Source: Opitutus terrae PB90-1
GTDB taxonomy: Bacteria > Verrucomicrobiota > Verrucomicrobiia > Opitutales > Opitutaceae
Length of the DNA: 64,000 nucleotides
Assembly: GCF_000019965.1 (NCBI RefSeq)
Contig: NC_010571.1
Location: 1,736,001 to 1,800,000 of the forward strand
Direction: 5' to 3'
Made by a program: the position numbers and the translations under genes. How positions within the stretch are numbered: the stretch's first letter is position 1; each line of letters begins with the position of its first letter. A model generated the notes under the pieces. It was not told where the DNA came from, made no database searches, and saw nothing but the letters and a program-made list of their open reading frames with translations. Positions 4,661 through 54,278 of the stretch are shown in pieces.

Positions 4661-4760
4661 GAATCCAGAGCTGAGAGCAGGAGGCCAGGGGTGCGCGCCG
4701 CATCCGTTGCGATTCCTACCGGAGTGCGAGCTCTGGACTCTGGGCTCCAGACTCTCGACT
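4651..4760. repeat. AGAGCTGAGAGTC-type repeat, inverted pair after the kinase gene
   Basis: Two blocks: 4651-4682 with units like CCAGAGCTGAGAATCC, and 4728-4760 with the reverse-complement type (GAGCTCTGGACTCTGGGCTC). They could fold into a long imperfect hairpin. The kinase stop TGA (4658-4660) is part of the first block. The same family occurs at 7638, 17208, 17339, 22563, 22760 and 50118. Confidence 0.8.
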
Positions 4761-7612: not shown

Positions 7613-7637
7613 CCGCCTGTAATGTGCCGGGTGTCAC

Positions 7638-7669
7638 GCTCTCAGCTCTAGACTCTCAGCTCTCAGCTC
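7638..7669. repeat. AGAGCTGAGAGTC-type repeat before the GH43 gene
   Basis: Pyrimidine-rich block of units such as CTCTCAGCTCTAGACTC ending 13 bases before the next ATG; the same family as at 4651 and 17208, in the orientation seen upstream of genes. Confidence 0.75.
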
Positions 7670-8725: not shown

Positions 8726-8806
8726 TTGTAGGGCGGGGTTTCCCGACCCCGCCGCGAGCGAGCATGAGCGCTGGAAACGGCGGGGTCGGGAGACCCCGCC
8801 CTACAA
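8726..8806. repeat. Palindromic element (TTGTAGGGCGGGG...), 29-bp inverted arms
   Basis: Arms 8726-8754 and 8778-8806 are inverted copies with one mismatch, separated by 23 bases. The ends read TTGTAGGG / CCCTACAA. It belongs with other TGTAG...CTACA-ended palindromes in this window (20271, 20413, 36003, 54207) and lies directly before the large GH43 gene. Confidence 0.92.
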
Positions 8807-8826: not shown

Positions 8827-11259
8827 ATGCTTGGCGCTTTGATGCTGGGAGCGGTTTCCGCTCAGCCGCTGCCTACGCCGACGTTCACCAACGTCACCGT
8901 GCACGATCCCTCCGTCATCAAGGCCGGCGCCCGCTGGTATGTCTACGGCTCGCACGGAGCGTCCGCCTGGACGGAGGACCTGATGCACTGGACCCAAGTG
9001 GCGACGAGCGTTACGTCGGGCAATCCGGCTCACTTCAACACCTTTGCGAGCGAGCTTTCGGAACTGATCGACTGGACGCACGCAGACACCCTCTGGGCAC
9101 CAGACGTCGTCCAGCTGCCGGATGGGAAATTCTACTATTACTACGACGTCTGGACGAATTACCTGAACTACCGCAGCTACATGGGGCTGGCTTCGGCCGA
9201 CGGAATCGAAGGGCCGTTCACCGATGTGGGCGAGATCATGAAGGGCGGCACGAACGTGTCCGGCTTCGACCCCGCCATCCATCCCAACACGATCGATCCG
9301 GATGTTTTCTACGATCGGGATGGCCAGCTGTGGATGGTCTATGGATCGTACTCGGGTGGCATTTTCATTCTCCGGCTCGACCAGACGGTGGGCTCCGCGA
9401 CGTTCGGACGTCCGCTCCCCGGCCAGAGCTGGGGCACCAAGCTCATCGGCGGCAACCATGCGCGGATCGAAGGCCCCTGCATCATCTACAGCCCGGAATC
9501 GCAGTACTACTATCTGTTCCTCTCGTTTGGCGGACTCGCGGCGAACGACGGCTACAACATTCGCGTGGCCCGTTCGCGCAATCCCGACGGGCCGTATGTC
9601 GACGCGGCGGGCAACGACCTGAAGAACGTCGGCGGTTCGGACGCGGCGATCGCACCCTACGGCGTCAAGCTCATCGGCAACTATCAATTCGCGCACGTGG
9701 CCGGCGAACCGCGGAACACCAGTCGCGGCTACCTCTCACCCGGACACAACTCCGTCTATCGCGATCCGGCGACGGGGAAGTACTTCCTGCTGTTCCACAC
9801 CCGGTTTGTCGGCTTGGGCGAGACCCACGAGGTTCGCGTTCACCAGATGTTCCTGAACGCCGACGGCTGGTTCGTGGTCGCGCCGCAACGCTACGCCGGC
9901 GAGACGATCGCCCCGATCACCGCGCGGCAGGTGCCGGGCAGCTTCAAGCTGATCAACCACGGCTGGGTGATCTCCTCCGCGGTCAACGGCTCCAGCCTGA
10001 TCACGCTCAATGCGGACGGCACGATCAGCGGTAGCGTGAGCGGCACGTGGCAAGTGACGGGGGACAACAGCGTCACGCTTTCGTACAACGGCGCGAACTA
10101 TCGTGGCGTGTTCGTGTTGCAATGGGACGACGACAACCAGGTGTGGATACTGGGCTTCACGGCGCTTTCCGCGGACGGCACCGCGATCTGGGGCAGCAAG
10201 GTCGCCGCGCTCAATGCGGTCGCCGCGCCCGCGCTGACCGGCACGCCCTCCAGCCAGACAGTCGCAGCCGGCGGCACGGCGACGCTGACGGCCGCCGCGA
10301 GCGGCGTGCCCGCGCCCGAGCTGCAATGGGAGCGGAACGGTTCCGCCGTCGTTGGCGCGAACAGCACCGTGCTCACGCTCGCGAACCTCGCGCCCGCCGA
10401 TGCGGGAATCTACACGATCGATGCGTCGAATTTTGCGGGCAGCGCTCCGAGCGCGCCGGCGATTGTGGGCCTGACCTCCGCCGCGAAAGTGATCGGCACG
10501 GGCGAGGAGCTGACGCCGGTGGATATCCATCATCCGAACGGAAACATTTTCGACCAGGTGCTGCTGACCGGTGCGGCAGAAACCATCACGGCCGATGCGG
10601 GCCAGGTCACTCGGACGTCCTATATCGACCTCGACAACGACATCGTGCAGGTCGAGTTCAGCGGTCCGGGTTCGCTATCGCTGGTGCTGGACAACGCCTC
10701 CGGCCGGGCGAAGCCGGAGAACTACAACCAGGACATCGACTACATGAAGGGCCACGCGGGGATCGTCATCACTGGCGCCACGGAAAACACACATGTGTCG
10801 GTCTTCTCAGTGGGCCGGGCGACGGCGGTGAACCAGGCGCTGTTCAAGGACACGGTAAACTACGACGGAATCGCGGACATCGCGTTCATTGCCATCTCGT
10901 CGTCGAACGGCCGGTTCGGTGGCGTGCGCACCGCGAACGCGAACTACTTCGCGTCGCGCGGCGTGACCGGCGTGTACGCACCCGGCGTGGCGTTCGATGG
11001 ACCGGTGTTCGTCGGCAACATCACCGCGTTCGATGCTGCGCAGCCGAAAATCGTGCTGGGTTCGGTCAGCGATGCGCGGATCGCCGGCGGCGATCTGTAT
11101 CAGGACAATGGTGCTGCGGTGCAGGTGAGCGGGATCACCCAGCTGAAGTTCACGAACGGTTCCGATTCTCACGGCAACACGATCCTGGCCAAAGCCAACC
11201 GCGCCGTGCTGCAGGAAAACGGTGAGGACGTCACCAACCGGATCGTCACGGGACCATAG
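8827..11259 (+). CDS. Large secreted arabinanase: GH43 + GH43_C lipocalin-like + Ig-like + shared C-terminal module
   Basis: An 810-residue exported enzyme. A short signal peptide (MLGALMLGAVSA) leads into a GH43 propeller with Asp27 (VHDPS), a second Asp near 158 (IDPDV) and a Glu near 215 (IEGPC). Residues ~360-460 resemble the small beta-barrel that follows endo-arabinanases of the Bacteroides/Bacillus type (GH43_C). An Ig-like domain (~470-550, with PELQWERNG and DAGIYTIDASN) comes next, then a 258-residue module almost identical to the end of the RCC1 protein downstream. The ATG at 8827 was chosen because the frame upstream runs through a palindromic repeat and the previous gene. It probably degrades long or surface-bound arabinan. 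Confidence 0.86.
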   Translation: MLGALMLGAVSAQPLPTPTFTNVTVHDPSVIKAGARWYVYGSHGASAWTEDLMHWTQVATSVTSGNPAHFNTFASELSELIDWTHADTLWAPDVVQLPDGKFYYYYDVWTNYLNYRSYMGLASADGIEGPFTDVGEIMKGGTNVSGFDPAIHPNTIDPDVFYDRDGQLWMVYGSYSGGIFILRLDQTVGSATFGRPLPGQSWGTKLIGGNHARIEGPCIIYSPESQYYYLFLSFGGLAANDGYNIRVARSRNPDGPYVDAAGNDLKNVGGSDAAIAPYGVKLIGNYQFAHVAGEPRNTSRGYLSPGHNSVYRDPATGKYFLLFHTRFVGLGETHEVRVHQMFLNADGWFVVAPQRYAGETIAPITARQVPGSFKLINHGWVISSAVNGSSLITLNADGTISGSVSGTWQVTGDNSVTLSYNGANYRGVFVLQWDDDNQVWILGFTALSADGTAIWGSKVAALNAVAAPALTGTPSSQTVAAGGTATLTAAASGVPAPELQWERNGSAVVGANSTVLTLANLAPADAGIYTIDASNFAGSAPSAPAIVGLTSAAKVIGTGEELTPVDIHHPNGNIFDQVLLTGAAETITADAGQVTRTSYIDLDNDIVQVEFSGPGSLSLVLDNASGRAKPENYNQDIDYMKGHAGIVITGATENTHVSVFSVGRATAVNQALFKDTVNYDGIADIAFIAISSSNGRFGGVRTANANYFASRGVTGVYAPGVAFDGPVFVGNITAFDAAQPKIVLGSVSDARIAGGDLYQDNGAAVQVSGITQLKFTNGSDSHGNTILAKANRAVLQENGEDVTNRIVTGP
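10483..11259 (+). repeat. Duplicated C-terminal module, copy 1 (777 bp)
   Basis: Codes for 258 residues from AKVIGTGEELTP to the stop. Copy 2 at 14112-14888 has exactly the same length and no indels; by my reading the proteins differ at about 10 residues. DNA is identical over 246 bases (10530-10775 against 14159-14404). Function unknown; its position after Ig-like domains suggests surface anchoring, sorting or binding. Confidence 0.95.
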
Positions 11260-11423: not shown

Positions 11424-14400
11424 ATGACCGATGCCCTCCGGCCCGTTGTACGTGGATGGTCCGCCTTCAGAGGCTTTCGAACTCGGTTAAGACTTCGTCA
11501 GCGCGGGATGTGCATCGGGGTGCTCGTAGGCGCCATCGGCTTCAGTGCACGGGCCGCCGTGACGTCCGTCTCCGCGGGGCTCGATCACACGATGTTCATT
11601 CTGGCCGATGGCACATTGGCGGGCATGGGGACCAACTATGCCGGGCAACTGGGGGATTTGAGTATTGAAGGCATGACCAGCCGGCCAATGAGGATCGGGA
11701 CGGGCGTGAGGTCCGTGGTCGTGGGGCAGCACCACACCCTGTTCGTTCGCACCGATCATACCCTCTGGGGCATGGGCGAGAACGTGTCCGGGCAACTTGG
11801 CGACGGCACCACGGTCGCACGAAGCTCTCCGATTCAAGTCACCAGCGATGTGGCACAAGTGGCGACGACCAGTCCCTCCTTCACGGGCCTGACCACCGAG
11901 CAGCACAGCGCGTTCGTCAGAACAGATGGCACCCTGTGGACGGTTGGCGCCAACAACGCCGGACAATTGGGCGATGGGACACGTGCGAGTCGCAGTACAC
12001 CTGTGCAGGTGGCCACCGGGGTCGCTGCTGTCGGCGCGGGGAAAGGCTACACCGTATTCTTAAAGACGGACGGGACGCTCTGGATGATGGGCACGGATTC
12101 AGCGACAAAACGTCTGTTGCCGGTGCAGGTGGCAACCGGGGTAGAGACGTTCTCCTGTGGACGCGGCTATGTGCTGTTTGTGAAGTCGGATCATACACTC
12201 TGGCGATTCAGCGACTACGGCGCGTCTCAGCCCAGCTTCGGGACCGCGACACTGGTTTCCGCGGATGTGAACTCGGCTACGGCAGGTGTCGACCATATGC
12301 TCTTCATCAAGGCGGATGACACGCTCTGGGGAAGAGGCCGCAATCTGACCGGTCAGCTTGGTATCGGCCCGGATTCAGAAGGAGGGAGCGATGGCGTACA
12401 GATCGCGACATCAGTGCTCGCGGCCTCGGCTGGTGACCAGAAAAGTTTCTTCGTCAAAAAAGACGGTTCGCTTTGGGCTATGGGCGACAATGTCTTCGGG
12501 CAGCTGGGCGACGGCACGCGGGTGGATCGCTGGACGCCGGTGGAGGTCCCGCAGATGTTGGGTCTTCCGTCTGTTGTGGTGTTTCCCACCACCCAAGTGG
12601 TGCATCCGCGACAACAAGCCACGCTCACCTGTGCGGGCAACGGCTTGGTCCCGCGGTCGTTTCAGTGGTACCATGACGATGTGCCGATCGCGGGTGCGAC
12701 GGAGAGCACCTACGTTTGCCGTGATCCCGGCCCCGACGACGGCGGCAGATATGCAGTAGTACTCACCAACGCCCTCGGCACGGCGCGTAGTGAAACTTTG
12801 GAACTGGTGATCGCGACACCCGTGCAGAAGGTGGTTTCGGTCGTCACGAGCGACGAGCACACCCTCTTTCTTCGGACGGACGGCTCGCTGTGGGGGACGG
12901 GTGCCAATCGCTGGGGGCAGTTGGGTGATGGCACGACCACGGATCGCGCCCTTTCCGTTCAGATTGCAACTGACGTGGTTTCGGTCGCTGTGACTCCCGA
13001 GGCGAGCTTCTTTGCCAAAGCGGATGGGACGCTCTGGGCCACGGGGAGCAACCGCGATGGCGAGATCGGGGACGGGACGACCGAGCAACGAAACAGTCCG
13101 GTGCAGGTGGCGACGGACGTGGCCTCCGTTTTCGCCGGGAGGTACAACGCGATGTACCTGACGCGTGACGGCACGCTGGTGAGTATCGGCGTGCTTGGTC
13201 GGCTGGGGTCCGGTGGCGTGCGCGTGCCGATCGCAACCGGCGTCACCTCTGCGGCGGTTGGCGCGAACCATGCCATTTTTGTGAAAACCGATGGCACACT
13301 CTGGGGAACGGGCGCGAATAACTTCGGCCAACTTGGACTCGGCGATGTTCTCGAGGCAGACTCCACTTTGATCGCGAACGACGTGGTTTCCGTCGCGGCG
13401 GGCAGTTTCCACAGTTTGTTCATCAAGCGGGATGGTACGCTCTGGGGTATGGGAACCAACTCGACCGGGCAGCTCGGGCTTGGGGAGAATGTTGTTGGTT
13501 CGAAAACCCCCGTGCAGATCGCGACCGGCGTGGCGCTCGTCGTCGCTAGCCTCAGCAATGACTCTCCACGCACGATGTTTGTGAAGACGGATGGCTCACT
13601 TTGGGGAATGGGGCGCAATCGACTAGGCGAGATGGGCGAGTTCGTGGTTCCTCCAGGTGCTCTGGATGGACCGGAGTACCTGGGTTACGATGGCATCGTG
13701 GCGCCGGCCGCAGGTGCAGTTCACTCTCTGTTCGTGCGGGCGAATGGCACGCTGTGGGGCATGGGACTCGGCCGTGCCGGACAGTTGGGCATCGGGATTG
13801 CCTACGTCGAGAACGCGTCCAGCAAACCGCGCCCGGTCACCCAGGGTGCAGGCATACCGTTCATCTCCGAGCATCCGGCGAACGTGGCGGCGGATGGTCG
13901 CAGCCCCGTGGTTTTACATGCAGCTGCGGAGGCCTCTGAAACGCCGAGCATGCGGTGGCAGTACAATGGCGCCGACATTCCCTCCGTGACAGGCGGTACG
14001 ATGACCCTCGCCAAGGCAGCGTCGTCAAGCGCAGGTCTGTACGCGGCTGTCGCCGAAAACCGGCTGGGACAGGTTACGAGCGATTGTGCGATCGTTGGTA
14101 TCGTGAGCACCGCGAAGGTGATCGGCACGGGCGAGGAGCTGACGCCCGTGGATATTCCTCATCCGAACGGAAACATTTTCGACCAGGTGCTGCTGACCGG
14201 TGCGGCAGAAACCATCACGGCCGATGCGGGCCAGGTCACTCGGACGTCCTATATCGACCTCGACAACGACATCGTGCAGGTCGAGTTCAGCGGTCCGGGT
14301 TCGCTATCGCTGGTGCTGGACAACGCCTCCGGCCGGGCGAAGCCGGAGAACTACAACCAGGACATCGACTACATGAAGGGCCACGCGGGGATCGTCATCA

Positions 14401-14888
14401 CTGGTGCCACGGAAAATACGCATGTGTCGGTCTTCTCAGTGGGTCGGGCGACGGCGGTGAACCAGGCGCTTTTCAAGGATACGGTGAATTACGACGGGAT
14501 CGCTGACATCGCGTTCATTGCCGTCTCGTCGTCGAACGGCCGATTCGGTGGCGTGCGCACCGCGAACGCGAACTACTTCGCGTCGCGCGGCGTCACCGGC
14601 GTGTACGCGCCGGGCGTGGCGTTCGACGGACCGGTGTTTGTCGGCAACATCACGGCGTTCGACACCGCGCAGCCGAAAATCGTGCTCGGGTCGGTCAACG
14701 ACGCGCGGATCACGGGCGGCGACCTGTATCAGGACAATGGCGCCGCGGTGCAGGTGAGCGGGATTACCCAGCTGAAGTTCACGAACGGTTCCGATTCCCA
14801 CGGCAACACGATCCTGGCCAAAGCCAACCGCGCCGTGCTGGAGGAAAACGGGCAGGACGTGACGAGTCGGATCGTGGTGAATCCGTAG
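11424..14888 (+). CDS. Secreted protein with two seven-bladed RCC1 propellers, two Ig-like domains and the shared C-terminal module
   Basis: A 1154-residue exported protein. After a basic start and a hydrophobic signal (CIGVLVGAIGFSARA), I count seven RCC1-type repeats of the form HTLFVRTDGTLWGMGxNxxGQLGDG, an Ig-like domain (residues ~375-460, with QWYHDD and GRYAVVLTN), seven more RCC1 repeats, a second Ig-like domain (RWQYNGADI, GLYAAVAEN), and a 258-residue C-terminal module shared with the GH43 protein upstream. Each set of seven should close one propeller. Blades 4 and 5 of the first set and blade 3 of the second are degenerate. The ATG at 11424 is preferred over a TTG at 11352. The role is unknown; such repeats usually bind proteins or glycans. 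Confidence 0.85.
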   Translation: MTDALRPVVRGWSAFRGFRTRLRLRQRGMCIGVLVGAIGFSARAAVTSVSAGLDHTMFILADGTLAGMGTNYAGQLGDLSIEGMTSRPMRIGTGVRSVVVGQHHTLFVRTDHTLWGMGENVSGQLGDGTTVARSSPIQVTSDVAQVATTSPSFTGLTTEQHSAFVRTDGTLWTVGANNAGQLGDGTRASRSTPVQVATGVAAVGAGKGYTVFLKTDGTLWMMGTDSATKRLLPVQVATGVETFSCGRGYVLFVKSDHTLWRFSDYGASQPSFGTATLVSADVNSATAGVDHMLFIKADDTLWGRGRNLTGQLGIGPDSEGGSDGVQIATSVLAASAGDQKSFFVKKDGSLWAMGDNVFGQLGDGTRVDRWTPVEVPQMLGLPSVVVFPTTQVVHPRQQATLTCAGNGLVPRSFQWYHDDVPIAGATESTYVCRDPGPDDGGRYAVVLTNALGTARSETLELVIATPVQKVVSVVTSDEHTLFLRTDGSLWGTGANRWGQLGDGTTTDRALSVQIATDVVSVAVTPEASFFAKADGTLWATGSNRDGEIGDGTTEQRNSPVQVATDVASVFAGRYNAMYLTRDGTLVSIGVLGRLGSGGVRVPIATGVTSAAVGANHAIFVKTDGTLWGTGANNFGQLGLGDVLEADSTLIANDVVSVAAGSFHSLFIKRDGTLWGMGTNSTGQLGLGENVVGSKTPVQIATGVALVVASLSNDSPRTMFVKTDGSLWGMGRNRLGEMGEFVVPPGALDGPEYLGYDGIVAPAAGAVHSLFVRANGTLWGMGLGRAGQLGIGIAYVENASSKPRPVTQGAGIPFISEHPANVAADGRSPVVLHAAAEASETPSMRWQYNGADIPSVTGGTMTLAKAASSSAGLYAAVAENRLGQVTSDCAIVGIVSTAKVIGTGEELTPVDIPHPNGNIFDQVLLTGAAETITADAGQVTRTSYIDLDNDIVQVEFSGPGSLSLVLDNASGRAKPENYNQDIDYMKGHAGIVITGATENTHVSVFSVGRATAVNQALFKDTVNYDGIADIAFIAVSSSNGRFGGVRTANANYFASRGVTGVYAPGVAFDGPVFVGNITAFDTAQPKIVLGSVNDARITGGDLYQDNGAAVQVSGITQLKFTNGSDSHGNTILAKANRAVLEENGQDVTSRIVVNP
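14112..14888 (+). repeat. Duplicated C-terminal module, copy 2 (777 bp)
   Basis: Partner of 10483-11259. Differences cluster at the end of the module and in third codon positions after 14404, while the first third is identical, which points to recent duplication or gene conversion. Confidence 0.95.
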
Positions 14889-17207: not shown

Positions 17208-17277
17208 AGTCTAGAGCCAAGAGTCCAGAGCTGAGAGCCCGGAAGTTGAGAGTTGAGGGCTGAGTGTTGAGAGCCCG
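17208..17277. repeat. AGAGCTGAGAGTC-type repeat, lutB side of the lutA-lutB spacer
   Basis: Begins 6 bases upstream of the lutB ATG with AGTCTAGAGCCAAGAGTCC and continues with GAGAGTTGAGGGCTGAG units. With the opposite-facing block at 17339-17372 it could form a long hairpin across the lutA-lutB spacer. Confidence 0.8.
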
Positions 17278-17338
17278 AACCAGAGGCGCACACGGCGGAC
17301 GTGCTGAAATTCTGGAATTGTTCGCATCGACGGTGATT

Positions 17339-17372
17339 GGCTCTCGGCTCTGGACTCTCAGCTCTCGACTCC
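17339..17372. repeat. AGAGCTGAGAGTC-type repeat, covering the lutA stop
   Basis: GGCTCTCGGCTCTGGACTCT and following bases; on the minus strand the unit GAGAGCTGA supplies the last sense codons and the stop of lutA (17358-17360). Confidence 0.8.
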
Positions 17373-20412: not shown

Positions 20413-20464
20413 TGTAGCCGGGGTCGCTGACCCGCCGGATCCGGCCTCGGCGAGGCCGGCTACA
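20413..20464. repeat. Palindromic element, TGTAGCCGGGGTCGCTGACC type
   Basis: 52 bases with 9-bp terminal inverted repeats TGTAGCCGG / CCGGCTACA and two internal hairpins. It ends 28 bases before the cstA ATG. A close relative lies inside the arnT coding region at 36003-36051. Confidence 0.88.
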
Positions 20465-32527: not shown

Positions 32528-33265
32528 ATGAACAAAACACTGGTTTGGGACCTGCCCGTGCGCGTGTTGCATTGGGCGATTGCGCTGTCGATCACCGGCG
32601 CGCTCGTGCTCGGATTGGGCGTCGACGACGACAGTCCGTGGTTCGCTTATCACATGCTGTGCGGCCTTTGGGCCGGCGGGAGCATTTTTCTCCGCCTGAT
32701 CGTGGGCCTCATCGGGTCGCGGAACGCGCGGTTCTCGAGCTGGCCCTGGTCCGTGCCAGCCTTGGGGCGGTACCTGCGTGACGTCGTCGCCGGCCGCGCC
32801 ACCGCGTACGCCGCGCACAATCCGGGTTCGGTCTGGATGGCGGTCGTCGTGTTCGCATCCGTGCCGTTGCTTATCGGGACGGGACTGCTCGGCGGCGGCG
32901 AACGTTTCGAGGAGCCGCACGAGGTGCTCGCCTATGTGCTGCTCGGCGCCGTGGTGCTCCACTTGCTGGGCTTGGTGCTGCACACGCTGCGCCATCGCGA
33001 GAACATTGCGTGGTCGATGGTGAACGGCCGGAAGGTCGCGCCGGCCGCGAGCGCGATCCCGCACCAGGGCGCGTGGGCCGGGCTGGCGGTGGCGGCGCTC
33101 GTGGCGCTGATGGCCATCGGGCTGTTCCGCGGTTACGATCCGTCCACCGGTCGCGTGCACGTGCCGGCGATCGGGCTCGCTCTGACGCTGAACAGCGAGG
33201 CCACCGCGAAGCCGGCCGGGGAACATCGCGAAGAACGCGAGCGCCACCATCACGATCACGATTGA
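32528..33265 (+). CDS. Cytochrome b561-type diheme membrane protein
   Basis: A 245-residue inner-membrane electron carrier of the bacterial cytochrome b561/Ni-Fe hydrogenase b-type family. Candidate heme ligands are His in VRVLHWAIA (residue ~15), YHMLCG (~43) and LHLLGLVLH (~143-150). Four helices are followed by a fifth near 180-200 and a tail ending EHREERERHHHDHD, a likely metal-binding patch. The ATG at 32528 has a good Shine-Dalgarno sequence (GGAAAGGA). It precedes a response regulator by 155 bases, so it may belong to the same regulon. Confidence 0.85.
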   Translation: MNKTLVWDLPVRVLHWAIALSITGALVLGLGVDDDSPWFAYHMLCGLWAGGSIFLRLIVGLIGSRNARFSSWPWSVPALGRYLRDVVAGRATAYAAHNPGSVWMAVVVFASVPLLIGTGLLGGGERFEEPHEVLAYVLLGAVVLHLLGLVLHTLRHRENIAWSMVNGRKVAPAASAIPHQGAWAGLAVAALVALMAIGLFRGYDPSTGRVHVPAIGLALTLNSEATAKPAGEHREERERHHHDHD

Positions 33266-33420
33266 GCCGCCGGGAGACAGGCGCGGCCATGGATTTGATC
33301 GCAGCGGACGAGTCGGCGGACGAGCCCAGCGGCTCGTCCGCGGGCGGGGAGCTTGGCGGGTCGGCGGAGAGTTACGCTCGCTTTTCCGACGCAGCCGGGC
33401 TGTATCTGCCGTTGAATGCG

Positions 33421-34086
33421 ATGAAGATACTCGTGGTCGAGGACGAGCGCCGCGTCGGGCAGTTCGTCGAGAAGGCGCTGACGGAGCAAAACTACACCGC
33501 GCGGTTGGTGCGCACCTGCGCCGAGGCCCGCGATGTGCTGGCGGAATCGACCTTCGACGCCGTGGTGCTGGATCTGGGGCTGCCGGACGGCGACGGACTC
33601 GATCTGCTGCGGGAGTGGCGGGCCAGCGGGTTCAACGAACCGGTGCTCGTGCTGAGCGCGCGCGACGCCGTCGGCGATCGCGTGCGCGGGTTGAACATGG
33701 GTGCGGACGATTATCTGCCGAAGCCGTTCAGCGTCGACGAAGTGGTGGCGCGGGTCCGGTCTTTGCTGCGGCGGCATGCGGGCGTGAAGACGACCGTGCT
33801 CACCCACGGACCGGTGCGCATGGACTTGCTCGGTCGCAGCGTCACCTGCGCCGGCCGGCCGGTCGAGCTGACCAGCCGCGAATACGCGCTGCTGGAGCTG
33901 TTCCTGCAGAATCCGCGCCGGGTGCTGACGCGGACGCTGATCGCGGAAAAGGTATGGGAGGCGAGTTACGATCTCGAGACCAACCTGATCGACGTCTACG
34001 TACGCCGGCTGCGCCAGAAGCTCGAGGCGCCCGGCCAGCCGCCGCTGATCAAGACGATTCGCGGCACCGGTTATCAGCTTTCGTGA
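33421..34086 (+). CDS. OmpR/PhoB-family response regulator (PmrA-like)
   Basis: A 221-residue two-component regulator. Receiver domain: acidic pair Glu7/Asp8, phospho-acceptor Asp51 (VVLDLGLPD), Lys101 (LPKPF). The C-terminal winged helix contains ELTSREYALLELFLQNPRRVLTR and ends IRGTGYQLS. The ATG at 33421 gives MKILVVEDE, the classic start. The kinase gene follows after 43 bases, and that kinase overlaps arnT, so by position this pair is the functional counterpart of PmrAB/BasRS controlling lipid A modification. Confidence 0.92.
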   Translation: MKILVVEDERRVGQFVEKALTEQNYTARLVRTCAEARDVLAESTFDAVVLDLGLPDGDGLDLLREWRASGFNEPVLVLSARDAVGDRVRGLNMGADDYLPKPFSVDEVVARVRSLLRRHAGVKTTVLTHGPVRMDLLGRSVTCAGRPVELTSREYALLELFLQNPRRVLTRTLIAEKVWEASYDLETNLIDVYVRRLRQKLEAPGQPPLIKTIRGTGYQLS

Positions 34087-34129: not shown

Positions 34130-35506
34130 ATGAGATCGTTCACCGCCCGTGTCACCTGGCAATTCGCGGCGCTCGTCACGGCGACGACCGCGTTGGTGCT
34201 GGCCGTGGGCGGCTGGCTGCAGTCGCGCGCCGCGGTGCGCGGGCTCGATTTTCTCAACGCGGCGGAGTTCGAGGAGCTGCACGCCCGGCTGGGCGAGGAA
34301 CCGCGCGGAGTGACGCGTCAGGAAGTGGATCAACGCGTGCGCGCGCATGCGACGATCGATGCTTCCCAATATTATTTTCAAGTCAGCACGCGCTCCGGCG
34401 TGGTGCTGTTTCGCTCGGACAACCTCGACGACCTGCAGCTACCCCTGCCGCAGACCGAGCAGCGGCAGTCGGCGGTGCTGCCCGAGATCGGCCGTGTGCG
34501 GGTGGCCGAATTCGTGACCGGTGATCTGCGGGTGCAGATCGCCAGTTCGCTCGAACCGGTGGAGCGGTTGCTGGGCGCCTATGCGCAGACGAGCCTGATG
34601 CTGCTCGGCGGCGTGGCGCTGGCGAGTGTGGGACTCGGCTGGTATTTCGCGCGGCTGACGCTGCGGCCAGTGCGGGCCATCCGCGAAACGGCCAGCCGGA
34701 TCGGCGCGGAGACGCTGAGTGAACGCATTCCGCTGCCGCCGGGCCGCGACGAACTGACGGCGCTGGCGGATTTGCTGAACCAGATGTTCGACCGGCTGGA
34801 AGGGTCGTTCGCGCAGGTGAAGCGGTTCACCGCGGACGCGTCGCACGAGCTGAAAACACCGCTGGCGCTGCTGCGGCTCAACGCCGAGAAGCTGCGCGGC
34901 CGACTGGCGGCCGATGCGGAGGCCAGCGCGGCGGTCGACGAGATGCTGGAGGATCTCGATGCGTTGCGTCGGGTGATCGACACGCTGCTGTTTCTCGCCA
35001 AGGCGGAGAGCGGCAGCCTGGCGCCGGCGATGAGCGAAATTTCCGCGGCGGAGTGGGTGAGGAGTTTTGGCGAAGATGCGGCCGTGATGAGCGAGGAGCG
35101 CGGTGTGGTTTTTGCAGTGACGCGCGCGGATGCAGGCGCCGTGCAGTGTGAACCGACGCTCGTCCGGCAGGTGTTGCTCAACCTGCTCACCAACGCGCTG
35201 CGGGTCGTGCCGGCGGGCGGACGGATCGAACTCGAATCCACCGTGACCGAAACGAGCTGGCGGTTGACGATGTCCGACGAAGGTCCGGGGCTGCCGCGCG
35301 AACAGGTGGAGCGGGTTTTCGAGCGATTTGTGCGGTTCGCGCATGGCGCGGTGGACGACGCGCAGCCGAACGGGCACGGGCTCGGGCTGGCCATTTGCCG
35401 GAGTATCGCGGGGCTCCACGGTGGGCGGATTCACGCCGAGAACCGGACGGAGCGTAGGGGCTTGCGCGTCGTGCTCGAGCTGCCCATTTCTGGCGTTCGC
35501 TCGTGA
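34130..35506 (+). CDS. Sensor histidine kinase (PmrB/CusS-like)
   Basis: A 458-residue inner-membrane sensor. Membrane helices at residues ~12-30 and ~155-175 flank a periplasmic sensor of about 120 residues with EFEELHARLGEE near the start, an acidic stretch that might bind metal or peptide. HAMP domain ~175-230, phospho-acceptor His239 (ASHELKTPL), N box NLLTNALR, G boxes DEGPGL and GHGLGLAI. Its stop overlaps the arnT GTG by four bases (GTGA), which couples sensor and target pathway in one transcript. Confidence 0.92.
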   Translation: MRSFTARVTWQFAALVTATTALVLAVGGWLQSRAAVRGLDFLNAAEFEELHARLGEEPRGVTRQEVDQRVRAHATIDASQYYFQVSTRSGVVLFRSDNLDDLQLPLPQTEQRQSAVLPEIGRVRVAEFVTGDLRVQIASSLEPVERLLGAYAQTSLMLLGGVALASVGLGWYFARLTLRPVRAIRETASRIGAETLSERIPLPPGRDELTALADLLNQMFDRLEGSFAQVKRFTADASHELKTPLALLRLNAEKLRGRLAADAEASAAVDEMLEDLDALRRVIDTLLFLAKAESGSLAPAMSEISAAEWVRSFGEDAAVMSEERGVVFAVTRADAGAVQCEPTLVRQVLLNLLTNALRVVPAGGRIELESTVTETSWRLTMSDEGPGLPREQVERVFERFVRFAHGAVDDAQPNGHGLGLAICRSIAGLHGGRIHAENRTERRGLRVVLELPISGVRS

Positions 35507-37257
35507 ACGCCCCTCTGCCTGCACCTCGAACCTCCTCCACTGGCTGGGCGCGCGACCTCGGTTGGCTGCTGCTCGCCTTCGCGCTGCTGTTCGGGCTGCG
35601 GCTGGGCTCGCATCCGTTGGCGAATCCCGACGAGGCCCGCTACGCGGAGATCCCGCGCGAAATGCTGGCGAGCGGCGACTGGGTCACGCCGCGGCTGAAC
35701 GGCGTGAACTATTTTGAGAAACCGCCGCTGGTGTATTGGGCCGAAGCGGTGAGCCTGCGCGTGTTCGGTCTGAACGATTGGGCGGCCCGGCTGCCGGCCG
35801 CGGCGTTCGCGCTGGGCGGGCTGGCGCTGACGTATGCGGCGACGCGCCGGATGTTCGGCCGCGCGGCGGGACGCTGGGCGGCGGTGGTGCTGGGCAGTTC
35901 GCTGCTTTATTTCGTGCTTGCGCGGACGCTGCTGCTGGACGGCGCGGTGTCAGTGCTGATGAGCGCCACGTTGTTTTGTTTCATCCTTGGCGTGCGCGAA
36001 CCTGTGGCCGGGGGCGCCGACCCCGGCCCGGCCTCAGCGAGGCCGGCGACAAGAATAGCAGGGCTGTCGCGCCGCCGATGGTTTTTCTACGGGCTGTATG
36101 CCAGCGCGGCGCTCGCGGTGCTGACCAAGGGGCTGATTGGCGTGCTCCTCAGCGGGCTCGTGATGTTCGTGTGGCTCCTGGTGTTTAACCAGTGGCGACG
36201 ACTCCGGCCGCTCTATCTGCCGACGGGCATTGTGCTGTTCCTGCTGATCGCCGCGCCCTGGCACCTGCTGGTGGCGCAGCGGAATCCCGACTGGGCGCAT
36301 TTCTATTTCGTGCGCGAACACTGGGAGCGGTTCACGACGACCACACATGGGCGGTTCGAGCCGTGGTGGTATTTCGTGCCGATCCTGTTTGTCGGCACGT
36401 TCCCCTGGATGGGTTTCCTGCCAATAGCCGTGAAACGGTTTCTCGCCGGCGGCTGGGCGGCGCGGAAAGAGCAGGCGGACCGGTGGTATTTCGCCACGTG
36501 GGCGCTGGTCATATTTCTGTTCTTCAGCAAGTCGCAGTCGAAGCTGATTCCCTACATCCTGCCGGTGCTGCCGGCGCTGGCGGCGATGCTGGGATGCTAC
36601 TTGGCGGAGCTGCGGCGCAATGCGGCGGCAAGACCGCGACTGCGCGATGGATTTGGATTGTTCGGCTTGGTGGCGGTGCTGCTCGGCGCGGCGTTCCTCA
36701 CTGTCGCGCTGCGACCGAACCTCGTGCGGAACGTGGAGCCCATTGCCGTGCTGCGGCCGTATGCGTGCGTGCTCGGCGGGGTGTTGCTGCTCGGCGGCGT
36801 CCTGACGGGGTGGTTCGCGGTGCGACGCGGCGCGCGCGCGGGATTGGGGACGCTGCTCGGCACTGTGGCCGTGATGTATGCGACGCTCGGTTTCGCCCAA
36901 CTGCACGTCGCCCGGCCATCCACTCGCGAACTTGCCGAGATCGTGACGGCGCGGGCGCAGCCGGCGGATCGGGTGTTGCACTATCAGGACTTCTTCCACG
37001 ATTTCACATTCTATGCGCAGCGCGAGGTCGGGGTCATTGGCTATCATGGTGAGCTCGAGGTGAAGGAGGACCCGCGGGCGCTGGCCAGTGGACGGTTCAT
37101 TGACGAAGCCGAGTTTCGACGCCAATGGCCGGGGCCGGACCGGCTGTGGGTTGTCGCCCGGAAGCGCGCCGTGGGCCGGTTGTTCGGCGATCCGTCGTTT
37201 CGTTATCATTTGATCGCGGAGACCCGCGGCCATTATCTGTTCAGCAACCAACCGTGA
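35503..37257 (+). CDS. arnT: ArnT-like undecaprenyl-phosphate Ara4N:lipid A transferase (GT83), with in-frame repeat insertion
   Basis: A 584-residue integral membrane glycosyltransferase that moves 4-amino-4-deoxy-L-arabinose from its undecaprenyl carrier to lipid A on the periplasmic side. The first periplasmic loop has the GT83 signature NPDEARYAEIPREM (41-54) with the catalytic Asp43-Glu44; FEKPPLVYW follows. About a dozen helices are visible. Residues ~168-184 (VAGGADPGPASARPATR) are encoded by a palindromic element also present in intergenic DNA at 20413; they lie in a loop between helices. GTG start at 35503 overlaps the kinase stop. First arn gene. Confidence 0.9.
   Translation: MNAPLPAPRTSSTGWARDLGWLLLAFALLFGLRLGSHPLANPDEARYAEIPREMLASGDWVTPRLNGVNYFEKPPLVYWAEAVSLRVFGLNDWAARLPAAAFALGGLALTYAATRRMFGRAAGRWAAVVLGSSLLYFVLARTLLLDGAVSVLMSATLFCFILGVREPVAGGADPGPASARPATRIAGLSRRRWFFYGLYASAALAVLTKGLIGVLLSGLVMFVWLLVFNQWRRLRPLYLPTGIVLFLLIAAPWHLLVAQRNPDWAHFYFVREHWERFTTTTHGRFEPWWYFVPILFVGTFPWMGFLPIAVKRFLAGGWAARKEQADRWYFATWALVIFLFFSKSQSKLIPYILPVLPALAAMLGCYLAELRRNAAARPRLRDGFGLFGLVAVLLGAAFLTVALRPNLVRNVEPIAVLRPYACVLGGVLLLGGVLTGWFAVRRGARAGLGTLLGTVAVMYATLGFAQLHVARPSTRELAEIVTARAQPADRVLHYQDFFHDFTFYAQREVGVIGYHGELEVKEDPRALASGRFIDEAEFRRQWPGPDRLWVVARKRAVGRLFGDPSFRYHLIAETRGHYLFSNQP
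36003..36051. repeat. TGTAGCC-type palindromic element inside the arnT coding sequence
   Basis: 49 bases aligning to 20413-20464 with one 3-base gap and about 41 matches. It is read in frame and adds about 17 residues to ArnT without a stop. Confidence 0.82.
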
Positions 37258-38432
37258 GCACTTCGCCCGCCGCCTCGACCGCGCCGTTTCTCCCGCTAAC
37301 CCGTCCCACGATCGATGAGGAAACGATCGCGGGCGTGGCCGACGTGCTGCGCTCCGGCTGGATTACCTCCGGCCCGAAGGTGAAGGAACTCGAGGCGAAG
37401 CTGTTCGATTACTTCGGCGGCCGGCCGGTGCGCGTGTTCAACTCGGGCACGTGCACGATGGAGATCGCACTGCGGATTGCAGGCGTCGGCCCGGGTGACG
37501 AGGTGATCACGACGCCGCTGTCGTGGGTGGCGACGAGCAATGTCATTCTCGAAGTGGGCGCGCGGCCGGTGTTCGTGGATATCGATCCGGTGACACGGAA
37601 CATCGATCTGGAGAAAATTGAACCGGCGATTACGGCGAAAACCCGCGCGCTGCTGCCGGTGGACCTCGCCGGGTTCCCGGTCGATCGCGACCGGCTGTAT
37701 GCGATCGCGCGCCAACACAAGCTGCGCGTGATCGAGGACGCCGCGCAGTCGTTCGGCAGCACCTGGGGCGGCCGGCGGATCGGTTCGTTTGGCGACTTCG
37801 TCTCGTTCAGTTTCCATCCGAACAAGAACATCACGACGATCGAAGGCGGCTGTCTTGTGCTGAACGACGAACGCGAGGCGAAACTCGCGGAGCAGTATCG
37901 GCTGCAGGGCGTCGTGCGCTCGGGCTTCGATGGGATGGAGGTCGAGGTGGTCGGCGGGAAGTTCAACCTCACCGACGTCGCGGCGCGCGTGGGGCTGGGG
38001 CAGTTGCCGCACATCGACGCGTTCAACGCCAAACGCGCGGAGCTGGTCCGCGCCTATTTCGAACTGCTCAGCGCGCCGGCGATCGCCGCGCTCGGGCTCG
38101 GATTGCCGCCGCAGGATTTCAGCGGGAGCAACTGGCACATGTTTCAAGTCGTGCTGCCGGACGATCAGCTGACGATCAAGCGGGCGGACGTGATGGCCCA
38201 GATGCACGCGTCCGGGATCGGCACCGGCGTGCATTATCCGGCGATTCATCTCTTCGCGGTTTACCGCCGGCTCGGCTGGAAGGAGGGCGATTTCCCCTTC
38301 GCCGAGAAAGTCTGCCGAAACATCCTGACGCTGCCGCTGTTTCCGGCGATGACGCGCGACGACGTGCGGCGCGTGGTGGAGGCGCTCGTGCGAATTCTGG
38401 AGGCGAATGCGAAAAATGAGCGCCACTCCTGA
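37254..38432 (+). CDS. arnB: UDP-4-amino-4-deoxy-L-arabinose aminotransferase
   Basis: A 392-residue PLP enzyme of the DegT/DnrJ/EryC1/StrS family. It transfers an amino group from glutamate to UDP-4-keto-arabinose, giving UDP-Ara4N. The PLP lysine is Lys191 (SFHPNKNITT), with the preceding VIEDAAQSFGS holding the PLP-ring Asp, and GSNWHMFQV near the C-terminal domain. GTG start at 37254 overlaps the arnT stop (GTGA). Members of this family act on many nucleotide sugars; the arn neighbours fix the substrate. Confidence 0.93.
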   Translation: MSTSPAASTAPFLPLTRPTIDEETIAGVADVLRSGWITSGPKVKELEAKLFDYFGGRPVRVFNSGTCTMEIALRIAGVGPGDEVITTPLSWVATSNVILEVGARPVFVDIDPVTRNIDLEKIEPAITAKTRALLPVDLAGFPVDRDRLYAIARQHKLRVIEDAAQSFGSTWGGRRIGSFGDFVSFSFHPNKNITTIEGGCLVLNDEREAKLAEQYRLQGVVRSGFDGMEVEVVGGKFNLTDVAARVGLGQLPHIDAFNAKRAELVRAYFELLSAPAIAALGLGLPPQDFSGSNWHMFQVVLPDDQLTIKRADVMAQMHASGIGTGVHYPAIHLFAVYRRLGWKEGDFPFAEKVCRNILTLPLFPAMTRDDVRRVVEALVRILEANAKNERHS

Positions 38433-39360
38433 GCTTTCGATCGTCATCCCCGTGTACAACGAGGAGCTGAATCTCCCGACGCTGTTCGCGCGGTTGTATC
38501 CCGTGCTCGACGCCATCGGCCGGAGCTACGAGGTGGTGTTCACCAATGACGGCAGCGCCGACCGCTCCATCGAGTTGCTGAAGGCGCAATTCGCCGCGCG
38601 ACCCGACGTGACGCGCGTGATCGATTTCAACTCCAACTACGGGCAGCACATGGCGATCATGGCCGCGTTCGAACGCGTGCGCGGCACGGTGATCGTCACG
38701 CTCGACGCGGACCTGCAGAATCCGCCGGAGGAGATTCCCAAGCTGCTGGAGAAAATCGATGCCGGGCATGATTACGTCGGCGGCTACCGGCTCGATCGGC
38801 AGGACTCGCTGTTCCGGACGTGGGCCTCACGGTTGATCAACATCGTCCGCGAACACACGACGAACATCGAGATGACGGACCAGGGCTGCATGTTGCGCGC
38901 TTATCGCCGGCCGATCATCGAGGCGATCGTGCACAGCGGCGCGATCAACACGTTCATCCCCGCGCTGGCCTACAGTTTCTCGAGCAATCCGGCCGAAGTC
39001 GGCGTGAAGCACGAGGAGCGGCATGCGGGGGCCTCGAACTACTCCGTCTACAAGCTCATCCGGCTGAACTTCGACCTGGTCACCGGATTCTCGATCGCGC
39101 CGCTGCAGTATTTCACGATGTTCGCGATGGCGTGTTGCGCGGGGAGCGCGCTGTTTGTGCTCGTGTTGGCCATCCGCCGGCTGTTCTTCGACTACACCGC
39201 GGCGGAAGGTTTGTTCACGCTGTTCGGGGTCTTGTTCTTCCTTATGAGCGTGGCGCTTCTGGGCATCGGGCTGATTGGCGAGTATGTCGGCCGGACCTAT
39301 CAGGTCGTGCGGGCGCGGCAGCGTTATTTCATCAAGGAAGTGCACGAGCGGAAAGAGTAG
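38416..39360 (+). CDS. arnC: ArnC undecaprenyl-phosphate Ara4FN transferase (GT2)
   Basis: A 314-residue membrane-associated GT2 enzyme that loads formylated Ara4N onto undecaprenyl phosphate on the cytoplasmic side. GT2 motifs: SIVIPVYNEELNLP at the start, FTNDGSAD near 45, LDADLQNPPEEIPK near 98, and the family-typical MTDQGCMLRAYRR near 155. Two C-terminal membrane helices (~230-255 and ~265-290) precede GEYVGRTYQVVRARQRY. It overlaps the end of arnB by 17 bases; an ATG at 38407 would add MRK. Confidence 0.93.
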   Translation: MSATPELSIVIPVYNEELNLPTLFARLYPVLDAIGRSYEVVFTNDGSADRSIELLKAQFAARPDVTRVIDFNSNYGQHMAIMAAFERVRGTVIVTLDADLQNPPEEIPKLLEKIDAGHDYVGGYRLDRQDSLFRTWASRLINIVREHTTNIEMTDQGCMLRAYRRPIIEAIVHSGAINTFIPALAYSFSSNPAEVGVKHEERHAGASNYSVYKLIRLNFDLVTGFSIAPLQYFTMFAMACCAGSALFVLVLAIRRLFFDYTAAEGLFTLFGVLFFLMSVALLGIGLIGEYVGRTYQVVRARQRYFIKEVHERKE

Positions 39361-40369: not shown

Positions 40370-41407
40370 ATGCCCCTCAAAGTTCTCATCCTCGGAGTCA
40401 ACGGCTTCATCGGCAGCTCGCTCACGCGCGCGATCCTCAAGCACAAGGATTGGGAGGTCTACGGCATGGACATCGGCAGCCACAAGCTGGAGGACAGCCT
40501 CAACCATCCGCGCTTCAAGTTCGTCGAGGGCGACATCACGATCAATCGCGAGTACATCGAATACCACGTGAAGAAATGCGACGTGGTGATCCCGCTCGTC
40601 GCCATCGCGAATCCGATTCAATACGTGAAGGACCCGCTGCGGGTGTTCGAGCTCGATTTCGAGGCGAACCTCGACGTCGTCCGCAAATGCGCGAAATACC
40701 GGAAGCGGATCATTTTTCCGTCGACGTCCGAGGTCTACGGGATGTCGCCCGATCGCGAGCTGAACGAGGCGACGAGCGCGTTGGTGTATGGACCGATCGA
40801 GCGGCAGCGCTGGATCTACGCCTGCTCGAAGCAGCTGCTCGATCGCGTGATCTACGCCTACGGCGTGCGCGACAACGTCGACTACACGCTGTTTCGGCCG
40901 TTCAACTGGATCGGACCGAAGCTCGACGATGTCATGGAGCCAAAGGAGGGCAGTTCGCGGCTGTTCACGCAGTTCATCTCCAACGTGATTTTCCAGAAGC
41001 CGCTGCAGCTGGTCGACGGCGGCCGGCAAACGCGCTCGTTCACCTTCATCGATGACGGCATCGACGCGTTGCTGCGAATCATCGAGAACAAGGATGGCTG
41101 CGCGTCGCGGCAGATCTTCAATCTCGGCAATCCAAAGAACGAGGTGAGCGTGGTCCAGTTGGCGAAGCTGATCATCGCCGCGTTCAAGGATTATCCCGAC
41201 TACGCCGAGCACGTCGCGAAGGCGAAAACGGTGGTGGTGCCATCCGGCAAGTACTTCGGAAAATACTACCAGGACATTCAAAAGCGCGTACCCTCGATCA
41301 CCAACGCAACGAAGCGGCTCGGCTGGAAGCCGAAGGTCGCGTTGCGCGAAGCGATCAAGCGCACGCTGGATTACCATCTCGCGCACAAGGACTATCAGCT
41401 GGAGTGA
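40370..41407 (+). CDS. arnA: UDP-glucuronate oxidative decarboxylase (ArnA C-terminal half as a separate gene)
   Basis: A 345-residue short-chain dehydrogenase-like enzyme that oxidises and decarboxylates UDP-glucuronate to UDP-4-keto-arabinose, the substrate of ArnB. The Rossmann loop GVNGFIGS lies at 9-16; the catalytic STSEVYG (Ser120, Glu121) matches Ser433/Glu434 of E. coli ArnA, and the conserved Arg region reads GGRQTRSFTFIDD near 220. No formyltransferase domain is attached. It makes a stand-alone partner for the preceding gene. Confidence 0.92.
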   Translation: MPLKVLILGVNGFIGSSLTRAILKHKDWEVYGMDIGSHKLEDSLNHPRFKFVEGDITINREYIEYHVKKCDVVIPLVAIANPIQYVKDPLRVFELDFEANLDVVRKCAKYRKRIIFPSTSEVYGMSPDRELNEATSALVYGPIERQRWIYACSKQLLDRVIYAYGVRDNVDYTLFRPFNWIGPKLDDVMEPKEGSSRLFTQFISNVIFQKPLQLVDGGRQTRSFTFIDDGIDALLRIIENKDGCASRQIFNLGNPKNEVSVVQLAKLIIAAFKDYPDYAEHVAKAKTVVVPSGKYFGKYYQDIQKRVPSITNATKRLGWKPKVALREAIKRTLDYHLAHKDYQLE

Positions 41408-41991: not shown

Positions 41992-42897
41992 ATGCCCCTC
42001 CGTCTCGCCCTCAAAGTCGACGTCGACACCGATCGCGGCACGCGCGACGGCGTGCCGAACCTGGTGGCGGATTGCCGCGCGATCGGTGCGCCCGCGTGCT
42101 TTCTGTTCTCGCTGGGGCCAGACCAGACCGGCCGTGCGATCACGCGGGTGTTGCGGCCGGGTTTCTTCAAAAAGGTGAGTCGCACGAGCGTGGTGCAGAT
42201 CTACGGCGTGCGCACGCTGCTGAACGGTACGTTGCTGCCGGCGCCGCATATCGGCCGACGGCACGCCGCCACGATGCGGGCGGTACGCGACGCCGGCTTC
42301 GAGGTCGGCATCCACTGCTACAACCACTACCGCTGGCAGGACTACCTGCAGCGGATGACGCAGCCGGAAGTCGACGCGGAGTTCCTGGCCGCGCGTGCGG
42401 AGTTCCGGCGGATCTTCGGTGCTGAAGCACACACTGCCGGCGCGGCAGGCTGGCAGAGCAACGCGCGCAGCCGGCACGCTTACGACGCGGCCGGCCTGCG
42501 GTATGCGAGCGACACGCGGGGTGGGGCGCCGTTCTTTCCGCGGATCGCAGGCCAAGTGTTCCGCACGCTCGAAATTCCCAGCACGCTGCCGACGTTCGAT
42601 GAACTGATGGGCCGGCCAGAATACCCGGACGATGCGATCGTCGATCACTATCTCTCGTTGTTGCGCGATGATCTCGTGAACGTGCTGACGATTCACGCGG
42701 AGATCGAGGGGATGGGGCGGCGCGCGCTGTTTGGTGAATTGCTTTCGGCGCTGCGGCGGACGGGCGTGGAGTTCGTCCGGCTCGACGACTACGCGCGGGA
42801 ATTGCTCGCCAACCGCGCGGCGATTCCCGTGCGCGAGCAGGTGATGGCGGAAATCGACGGCCGCTCAGGACTCGTGGCCGCGCAGGCGCCGGACTGA
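41992..42897 (+). CDS. arnD: ArnD undecaprenyl-phosphate Ara4FN deformylase
   Basis: A 301-residue polysaccharide-deacetylase-fold enzyme that removes the formyl group from the carrier-linked Ara4FN, the step after ArnC. NodB-type motifs: LKVDVDTDRGTRDG at the start with the metal/catalytic Asp, GIHCYNHYRWQDY near 103-115 with the histidine pair, and ILTIHAEIEG-type (VLTIHAEIEGM) near 225. Length equals E. coli ArnD. It begins 3 bases after the toxin gene. No arnE/arnF flippase genes follow. Confidence 0.93.
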   Translation: MPLRLALKVDVDTDRGTRDGVPNLVADCRAIGAPACFLFSLGPDQTGRAITRVLRPGFFKKVSRTSVVQIYGVRTLLNGTLLPAPHIGRRHAATMRAVRDAGFEVGIHCYNHYRWQDYLQRMTQPEVDAEFLAARAEFRRIFGAEAHTAGAAGWQSNARSRHAYDAAGLRYASDTRGGAPFFPRIAGQVFRTLEIPSTLPTFDELMGRPEYPDDAIVDHYLSLLRDDLVNVLTIHAEIEGMGRRALFGELLSALRRTGVEFVRLDDYARELLANRAAIPVREQVMAEIDGRSGLVAAQAPD

Positions 42898-50117: not shown

Positions 50118-50196
50118 GCCGAGAGCCGAGCGTCCAGAGCGGAGAGCCGGAGCCGTTGAGAGTTGAGCGTTGAGAGTTGAGAGCCGAAAGCCGCCA
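50118..50196. repeat. AGAGCTGAGAGTC-type repeat array upstream of the aldo/keto reductase gene
   Basis: Units such as GAGAGCCGAGCGTCCAGAGC and TTGAGAGTTGAGCGTTGAGA, starting 15 bases upstream of the reductase ATG and filling most of the spacer to the lactonase gene. Confidence 0.82.
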
Positions 50197-50254
50197 ACTG
50201 GAGGCAACCGGTTCCCGGCGCGGCAATGTAGGCTCTGGATTCGCGGCTGCATGG

Positions 50255-54206: not shown

Positions 54207-54278
54207 TGTAGGAGCGGCTTTATGCCGCGATCCGGAGCGCCAGAGACGGACCCATCGCGGCGTAAAGCCGCTCCTACA
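54207..54278. repeat. Palindromic element, TGTAGGAGCGGCTTTATGCC type
   Basis: Arms 54207-54230 and 54255-54278 are inverted with 23 of 24 matches, loop 24 bases. This TGTAGGAGCGGCTTTA type is known as a dispersed palindrome in several Gram-negative genomes. Confidence 0.92.

Follow-up and report, generated by a model that had tools for sequence, protein, structure and literature searches.

The 49 bases at positions 36003-36051 (forward strand) of the window, i.e. the whole 64,000-nucleotide stretch of the Opitutus terrae PB90-1 genome that was analysed, are a GTAG-tagged REP head-to-head dimer of the REPIN type located inside an arnT-like open reading frame. Very probably, a GTAG dimer entered arnT in this lineage, most likely via a RAYT, and survived in a permissive cytosolic loop. 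Four hallmarks of REPIN/GTAG dimers were found, namely a family tag, two opposed hairpin arms, many dispersed copies and a RAYT gene with repeats of the same kind on either side.

The host gene (35503-37257, forward strand) was recognized by its open reading frame, Pfam and NCBIfam matches and AlphaFold fold as coding for a 584-residue glycosyltransferase of the GT-C/PMT superfamily. The protein matches the PMT family PF02366, and its best NCBIfam match is PRK13279 (ArnT) with 232 bits. Because this score is below the curated cut-off of 567, ArnT-like is the safe name. The AlphaFold model superimposes on the ArnT structure of C. metallidurans (5f15) with 518 residues aligned (Z 39.6; 2.8 A), and the ArnT fold is accompanied by an arn-type gene neighbourhood. 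Upstream, on the same strand, are genes for a PmrA/CztR-like response regulator (33010-34086; all NCBIfam matches shown are below their cut-offs) and a sensor histidine kinase (34130-35506; NCBIfam matches likewise below cut-offs), the latter extending 4 bases into arnT. About 137 codons of the response regulator frame precede the conserved domain, and its true start is probably internal. Downstream follow, also on the forward strand, genes for an arnB-like aminotransferase (37254-38432, start assumed; PRK11658, 310 bits, cut-off 631), an arnC-like undecaprenyl-phosphate transferase (38407-39360; PRK10714, 326 bits, cut-off 529), a UDP-4-keto-pentose/UDP-xylose synthase of the ArnA C-terminal type (40370-41407; PRK11908, 597 bits, cut-off 294) and an arnD-like deformylase (41992-42897; PRK15394, 222 bits, cut-off 382). 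Only the arnA-C-like one of these four scores above its cut-off.

Sequence, fold and copies define the first REP arm at 36004-36026 (forward strand) and, after a 1-base spacer, the second arm in opposite orientation at 36028-36050 (reverse strand); their tags read GTGG and GTCG, respectively, where GTAG is found mostly elsewhere. A BLAST search of the whole 5.96 Mb genome with the 49-base segment plus 14 flank bases returned at least 49 raw matches, which correspond to at least 41 distinct places including arnT, some of these being partial; with 40 of 87 first-look candidates scored, this count is a lower bound. The closest other copy among the scored candidates is 92% identical (E 1e-13). The relationship to an intergenic sequence at 20413-20464 (52 nt, forward strand), noted in the first-pass annotation, was borne out (83% identity, E 3.3e-7, a 3-base gap between the two), and the second arm of that copy was also matched by a pattern search. 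Single arms of the type GTAGCCGGSSYCGNNGRSSCCGG occur 190 times in the genome when up to one mismatch is allowed, as compared to one hit for the reversed control. The repeated unit is a pair of hairpin arms joined head to head with GTAG outermost and, in most of 30 copies, a spacer of about one base. Typical of the family is the A at the third base of the tag, present at one end in 38 of the 40 other places, and the matching T at the other end in 33 of 40. By contrast, the tags of the arnT copy are altered, with G at positions 4 and 46; a further G is present at position 12, where 37 of the 40 other places have T. Two of these three bases are synonymous in the frame used and one changes Val to Gly. 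The notion that they are private to the arnT copy was rejected, as a recount over the 40 other places showed them to be uncommon only.

Several other repeats were noticed in the window. An inverted repeat beginning with TTGTAGGGCGGGG at 8726-8806 (29-nt arms, 97% complementary) is of the GTAG type and resembles the second ArnT insert of the homologue L120 (see below), and another GTAG-type palindrome, beginning with TGTAGGAGCGGC, lies at 54207-54278 (25-nt arms, 96% complementary). A dispersed repeat of the AGAGCTGAGA type is found at 4653-4689, 7627-7663, 17208-17370 and 50122-50199. In addition, 10481-10780 and 14110-14409 form a direct repeat of 300 nt with 98% identity and a distance of 3.6 kb.

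The element is read through without a stop codon inside the 584-codon frame, as the first-pass annotation had stated. Codon 167 (P167) takes its third base from the element, and the 16 codons 168-183 (V168-T183) lie in it as a whole. It codes for a flexible stretch rich in Ala, Gly and Pro; EPVAGGADPGPASARPATR is a predicted peptide of the insert. The earlier estimate of about 17 added residues was right in that extra residues are present; the number has to be revised, because 16 whole codons derive from the element and the span LGV..LYA comprises 39 residues in the window's ArnT versus 20 in most homologues, an excess of 19. Hence, about three residues within the adjoining RIAGLS (184-189; 36052-36069, forward strand) are also extra compared with homologues. 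The 57-nt excess is 8 nt longer than the 49-nt element, which counts against our favoured explanation.

To place the insert in a phylogenetic context we used ArnT homologues from 125 of 252 genomes of the family (that of O. terrae included) and 60 loci of a second collection. The 189 loci taken, each of which could be aligned to the left and to the right of the loop, gave 140 rows, 129 of them distinct by DNA over residues 120-230, some rows being one record present in both collections. Among these 129, the loop span is 20 residues in 112, 18 or 19 in seven, and longer in ten. None of the 129 carries the insert residues of the window, and the repeat family has at least 40 further places in the genome; the two observations on which the earlier reading had been staked thus both turned out in its favour. 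Its expectation of a lineage-specific gap held as well. No exact empty site was found in a close relative, another genome of the same genus giving no ArnT match at E 1e-30, and the ends of the insertion are therefore not fixed.

In the AlphaFold model (36 sequences, pTM 0.87), pLDDT values below 50 are confined to the N-terminus and to residues 172-187, between helices 146-165 and 190-209. This agrees with the previous assignment of the insert to a loop between membrane helices. For the B. cenocepacia ArnT, the available text of PMC5377068 reports a cytosolic location of Arg161, which lies between the membrane-buried residues Cys154 and Cys176, and likewise of Ile288 and Asp350; the transfer itself is catalysed on the periplasmic side. 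Judged by position rather than by direct alignment, these three residues would correspond to the three ArnT loops considered here, and by comparison with the ArnTs studied the insert-bearing loop is predicted to be cytosolic. The full-length reading frame, a codon usage like that of coding sequence before and after the insert, and the arn-type cluster support the view that ArnT tolerates the insert; the enzyme is presumably active and the insert neutral. A pseudogene was considered and judged unlikely, since the reading frame is full-length and homologues align on both sides.

arnT is not the only gene hosting a copy. In line with the suggestion that intragenic copies be listed, 13 of the 41 places were found inside supported open reading frames, representing 12 genes. 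Eleven of the 13 are backed by Pfam matches or by homology to solved structures, either flanking the site on both sides or spanning it; they lie in arnT, purL, cobW, uvrA, a DNA ligase gene (twice), and the genes for a WD40 protein, an E2 acyltransferase, an ABC_transp_aux protein, dihydrolipoamide dehydrogenase and an RND pump. The other two (L009 and L010) are supported by reading frame length and by codon usage on at least one side. The two copies in the DNA ligase gene (L018 and L027; genome positions 4092357-4092876) are about 475 bases apart. The in-frame REPINs in the genes for the E2 acyltransferase (L016, genome position 5417987) and the E3 dihydrolipoamide dehydrogenase (L029, 5419203) are separated by about 1.2 kb. 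In purL (L003), the REPIN copy is directly followed, in frame, by sequence similar to the AGAGCTGAGA-type repeat. A well-supported spanning gene is absent at 28 of the 41 places, which is not proof of an extragenic location. Ten of the places outside the 13 overlap open reading frames that lack two-sided support (accA at L134; L002, L004, L015, L019, L020, L024, L130, L135; and an antisense frame at L022), and the remaining ones have no spanning frame or low codon scores.

All 13 gene-supported copies lie in the frame that reads the tag as GTA-G. The GGGGTC-type arm comes first in 11 and the GGGCTC arm in two of them, and the resulting peptides follow the pattern VAGxx[DE]PG. Counting both orientations of the places that fitted the search pattern (11 of the 41 were skipped), 60 copy-orientations were obtained, of which 59 have no stop codon in the GTA frame, as against 21 in the TGT frame and 3 in the TAG frame. 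Most of the single-frame bias is therefore due to stop codons blocking the other frames, and we do not argue for selection of one frame; if the survivors simply mirror the share of each frame among the stop-free ones (59/83, again with 11 of 41 places skipped), the chance of finding 13 out of 13 in the GTA frame is about 0.012. Among the ten less supported frames, eight have the tag at the relevant end, and these are evenly divided between the GTA frame (four) and others (four). The copy in accA is in another frame and upstream of the conserved domain.

Five regions of the genome match the Y1-transposase-like family PF01797, three of them above the cut-off. One is a short open reading frame at genome positions 2,530,363-2,530,884, whose match is modest (29.8 bits; cut-off 23) and which contains DHVHF and EYVRQNPVRAG, sequences that we take to be RAYT motifs. 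This RAYT-type gene is closely preceded by a GTAGCCGG dimer and closely followed by a single GTAGCCGG arm, while the surroundings of the other four matches contain different repeats or none. REP-flanked RAYT genes are described in the available text of PMC3733652. The dispersal of the repeats, the 13 copies in 12 genes and the RAYT-type gene flanked by the same repeats lend support to the past mobility postulated in the first-pass annotation, and the family has probably moved around the genome. We propose that the RAYT (Y1/HUH) transposase from 2,530,363-2,530,884 may have inserted a REP dimer into arnT, this being the most likely route. Survival of the insert would then have been favoured by an element that is nearly always stop-free in the GTA-G frame in both orientations, and by its landing in a short loop on the cytosolic side, which connects helices 146-165 and 190-209 and is remote from the active site in the periplasm. 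If the length of such loops is little constrained, selection would leave survivors in permissive cytosolic loops. The arnT copy, with its tags changed at both ends, is probably immobile by now.

In related bacteria, other repeats seem to have invaded this ArnT loop independently. It is longer in 10 of the 129 distinct homologues, in addition to that of the window, and in five of the ten repeats account for the extra length. On a quick tree from which the loop columns had been omitted (with 38 of its 135 inner branches open), the loop-length label requires at least nine gains or losses, seven of them forced by starred branches, with all expansions taken together. In L120 the loop contains a GTAG dimer of an unrelated type, for which scoring of 40 of 237 candidates gave at least 39 other places in the genome of L120; the matches mostly end at the ends of the element. 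The insert of L114 is built of TTCGACAAGCTCA-type repeats, pieces of which are also present in L037, L038 and L172; L037 and its relatives L088 and L089 constitute a near-empty-site pair for this repeat type. Exact TTCGACARGCTCA matches number 48, 13, 29 and 61 in the genomes of L114, L037, L038 and L172, respectively (controls 0-1), and 1-5 in four genomes without the insert. What counts against a tight association is that TTCGACARGCTCA is also common in the O. terrae genome (26) and in G252 (22), neither of which has such a loop insert. No recognized repeat was found in L163, L174, L170, the L110 group and the L117 group despite their longer loop, and the loop thus tolerates more than repeats.

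Two further loops of ArnT also hold repeats. At residues 310-320, L120 contains a GTAG repeat of a further type (with 79 genomic matches if both strands of a place are counted), so that its single ArnT gene harbours two different GTAG repeat types in two loops. TTCGAC-type pieces are present at residues 310-320 in L175 and L109 and, more weakly, in L177 and L194, and at residues 374-386 in L193/L124, probably one record held twice. Among 129 ArnT rows with a length of 480 residues or more, the eight matches to TTCGACARGCTCA that have up to one mismatch are all located in the three loops, and the reversed control has none. When two mismatches are allowed, 13 out of 16 are located there and three elsewhere, as are all three matches of the control. 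The repeat is enriched over the control in the genome of L175 (31 versus 1). The genomes of L177, L194 and L124 contain 11, 4 and 8 copies (controls 1, 0 and 0), and G074 is slightly enriched (4 versus 0). Enrichment was not seen in the genome of L109 (2 versus 2), which counts against the association, nor in G011, the genome of L198, whose ArnT is longer in another region (2 versus 2). In other Opitutaceae, different repeats appear to have reached these loops in separate events, and the loops may thus represent permissive landing places.

How the repeat came to lie in arnT can be explained in other ways. Recombination, gene conversion or template switching may have placed it there without a RAYT, and hairpin DNA is prone to template switching. 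Such a route, which we consider unlikely, would accommodate the roughly 8 nt beyond the element, the joining of the purL copy to a second, unrelated repeat, and the BLAST match to copy L005, which runs on through the 14 flank bases with 84% identity. However, no carry-over of flanks from a source copy was seen across the 40 places: an 8-mer of the flank downstream of the arnT insert recurs at three and one of the upstream flank at two of them, which does not exceed chance, as 20-mers picked at random from the window match 1.0 places on average and 51% match at least one. The presence of a RAYT gene with matching repeats also argues against this route. That the similarity is fortuitous, arising in a GC-rich loop or from a misread frame, has virtually no probability left. 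The genome is indeed GC-rich and has many spurious open reading frames, but the E value of the next copy, the excess of arms over their control, the coding-like codon usage on both sides and the alignment of homologues up to the insert from either side led us to reject it.

Another idea is that the segment was selected for a function, be it an mRNA hairpin tuning arnT translation or an interaction loop. On the coding strand it is predicted to fold with -32.6 kcal/mol (z -2.2), and two of its three uncommon bases are synonymous; yet the intergenic copy folds more strongly (z -4.3), the peptide is predicted to be unstructured, 112 of the 129 distinct homologues do without it, and three changes are too few for selection to be deduced. 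We therefore assign very little probability to such a function. Hardly more plausible is a loop that acts as a sequence- or structure-specific insertion target, beyond mere tolerance. The occupation of one loop by unrelated repeat types in different lineages would be expected under this model, but one of these types has no GTAG tag, two further loops were entered as well, the O. terrae copies are spread over 12 genes and have flanks of dissimilar appearance, and no recognized repeat is present in half of the homologues with a longer loop. It is tempting to speculate that the GTAG dimers of Opitutaceae are coding-ready mobile modules, almost always free of stops in either orientation owing to palindromy and the GTA frame. 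Together with other repeats they would recurrently extend the cytosolic ArnT loops 166-190, 310-320 and 374-386 in different lineages, their readiness being kept by selection on the repeat. If true, Opitutaceae would owe much of their new loop sequence to repeat families; we regard this extension as quite doubtful. Insertion of a GTAG dimer, most likely by a RAYT, followed by survival in a tolerant loop remains our preferred reading.

REP elements are usually described as extragenic. In the O. terrae genome, copies sit in core genes in one permissible frame. Like the REPINs of Bertels and Rainey (2011; PMC3116915), the arnT element belongs to a dispersed family of inverted REP doublets, and a RAYT-type gene lies beside matching repeats. 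Unlike those REPINs, which according to the available text are extragenic (14 of 1,067 occurrences of the commonest 16-mers overlap genes), 13 of the 41 places examined here are in supported genes. Closest are the GTAG REPs of O. terrae itself. Di Nocera et al. (2013; PMC3733652) distinguished 24 GTAG families and, in the available text, names O. terrae as the species with most intragenic GTAG repeats, lists its uvrA and DNA ligase genes among the carriers, and gives a distance of 1-2 bp between the partners of GTAG-17 head-to-head dimers. The element described here shares with these repeats the tag, the head-to-head arrangement, the 1-base spacer, dispersal, intragenic copies and the uvrA and ligase hosts, and differs in the changed tags of the arnT copy. 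Spacer and orientation suggest that it may belong to GTAG-17. Because intragenic GTAG repeats of O. terrae were reported in 2013, the surprise initially attached to the arnT insert was overrated: class, species and in-frame habit have been published, the arnT case is new at most as an instance, and the locus may already be contained in Additional file 3 of PMC3733652.

Similarity to the Rickettsia palindromic elements, which the first-pass annotation had pointed out, holds as an analogy, in that a palindromic repeat is present in frame within many protein genes. It does not extend to membership in that class, which we rejected on the basis of the tag: RPE-4 and RPE-6, from a different phylum, are of the CGTC class, with no associated transposase found according to the available text of PMC3733652, whereas the family tag of the arnT element is GTAG. 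The literature matches listed, which cover the field in part, include no paper on repeats inside ArnT, and neither these matches nor the available text of PMC3733652 report unrelated repeats sharing ArnT loops across genera. As the kind of event has been published, what is gained is not a new phenomenon but a clean comparative case that lends itself to testing. In Opitutaceae, ArnT serves as a natural experiment for asking which protein loops accept added sequence and in what way mobile palindromes provide it, and the pattern of its loops is the part worth following up. The nearest precedent in the available text of PMC3733652 is recB of X. campestris and X. oryzae, where different repeats are located at about the same site; unlike that case of one gene in two species, here unrelated repeat types are found across genera in one loop of a membrane protein.
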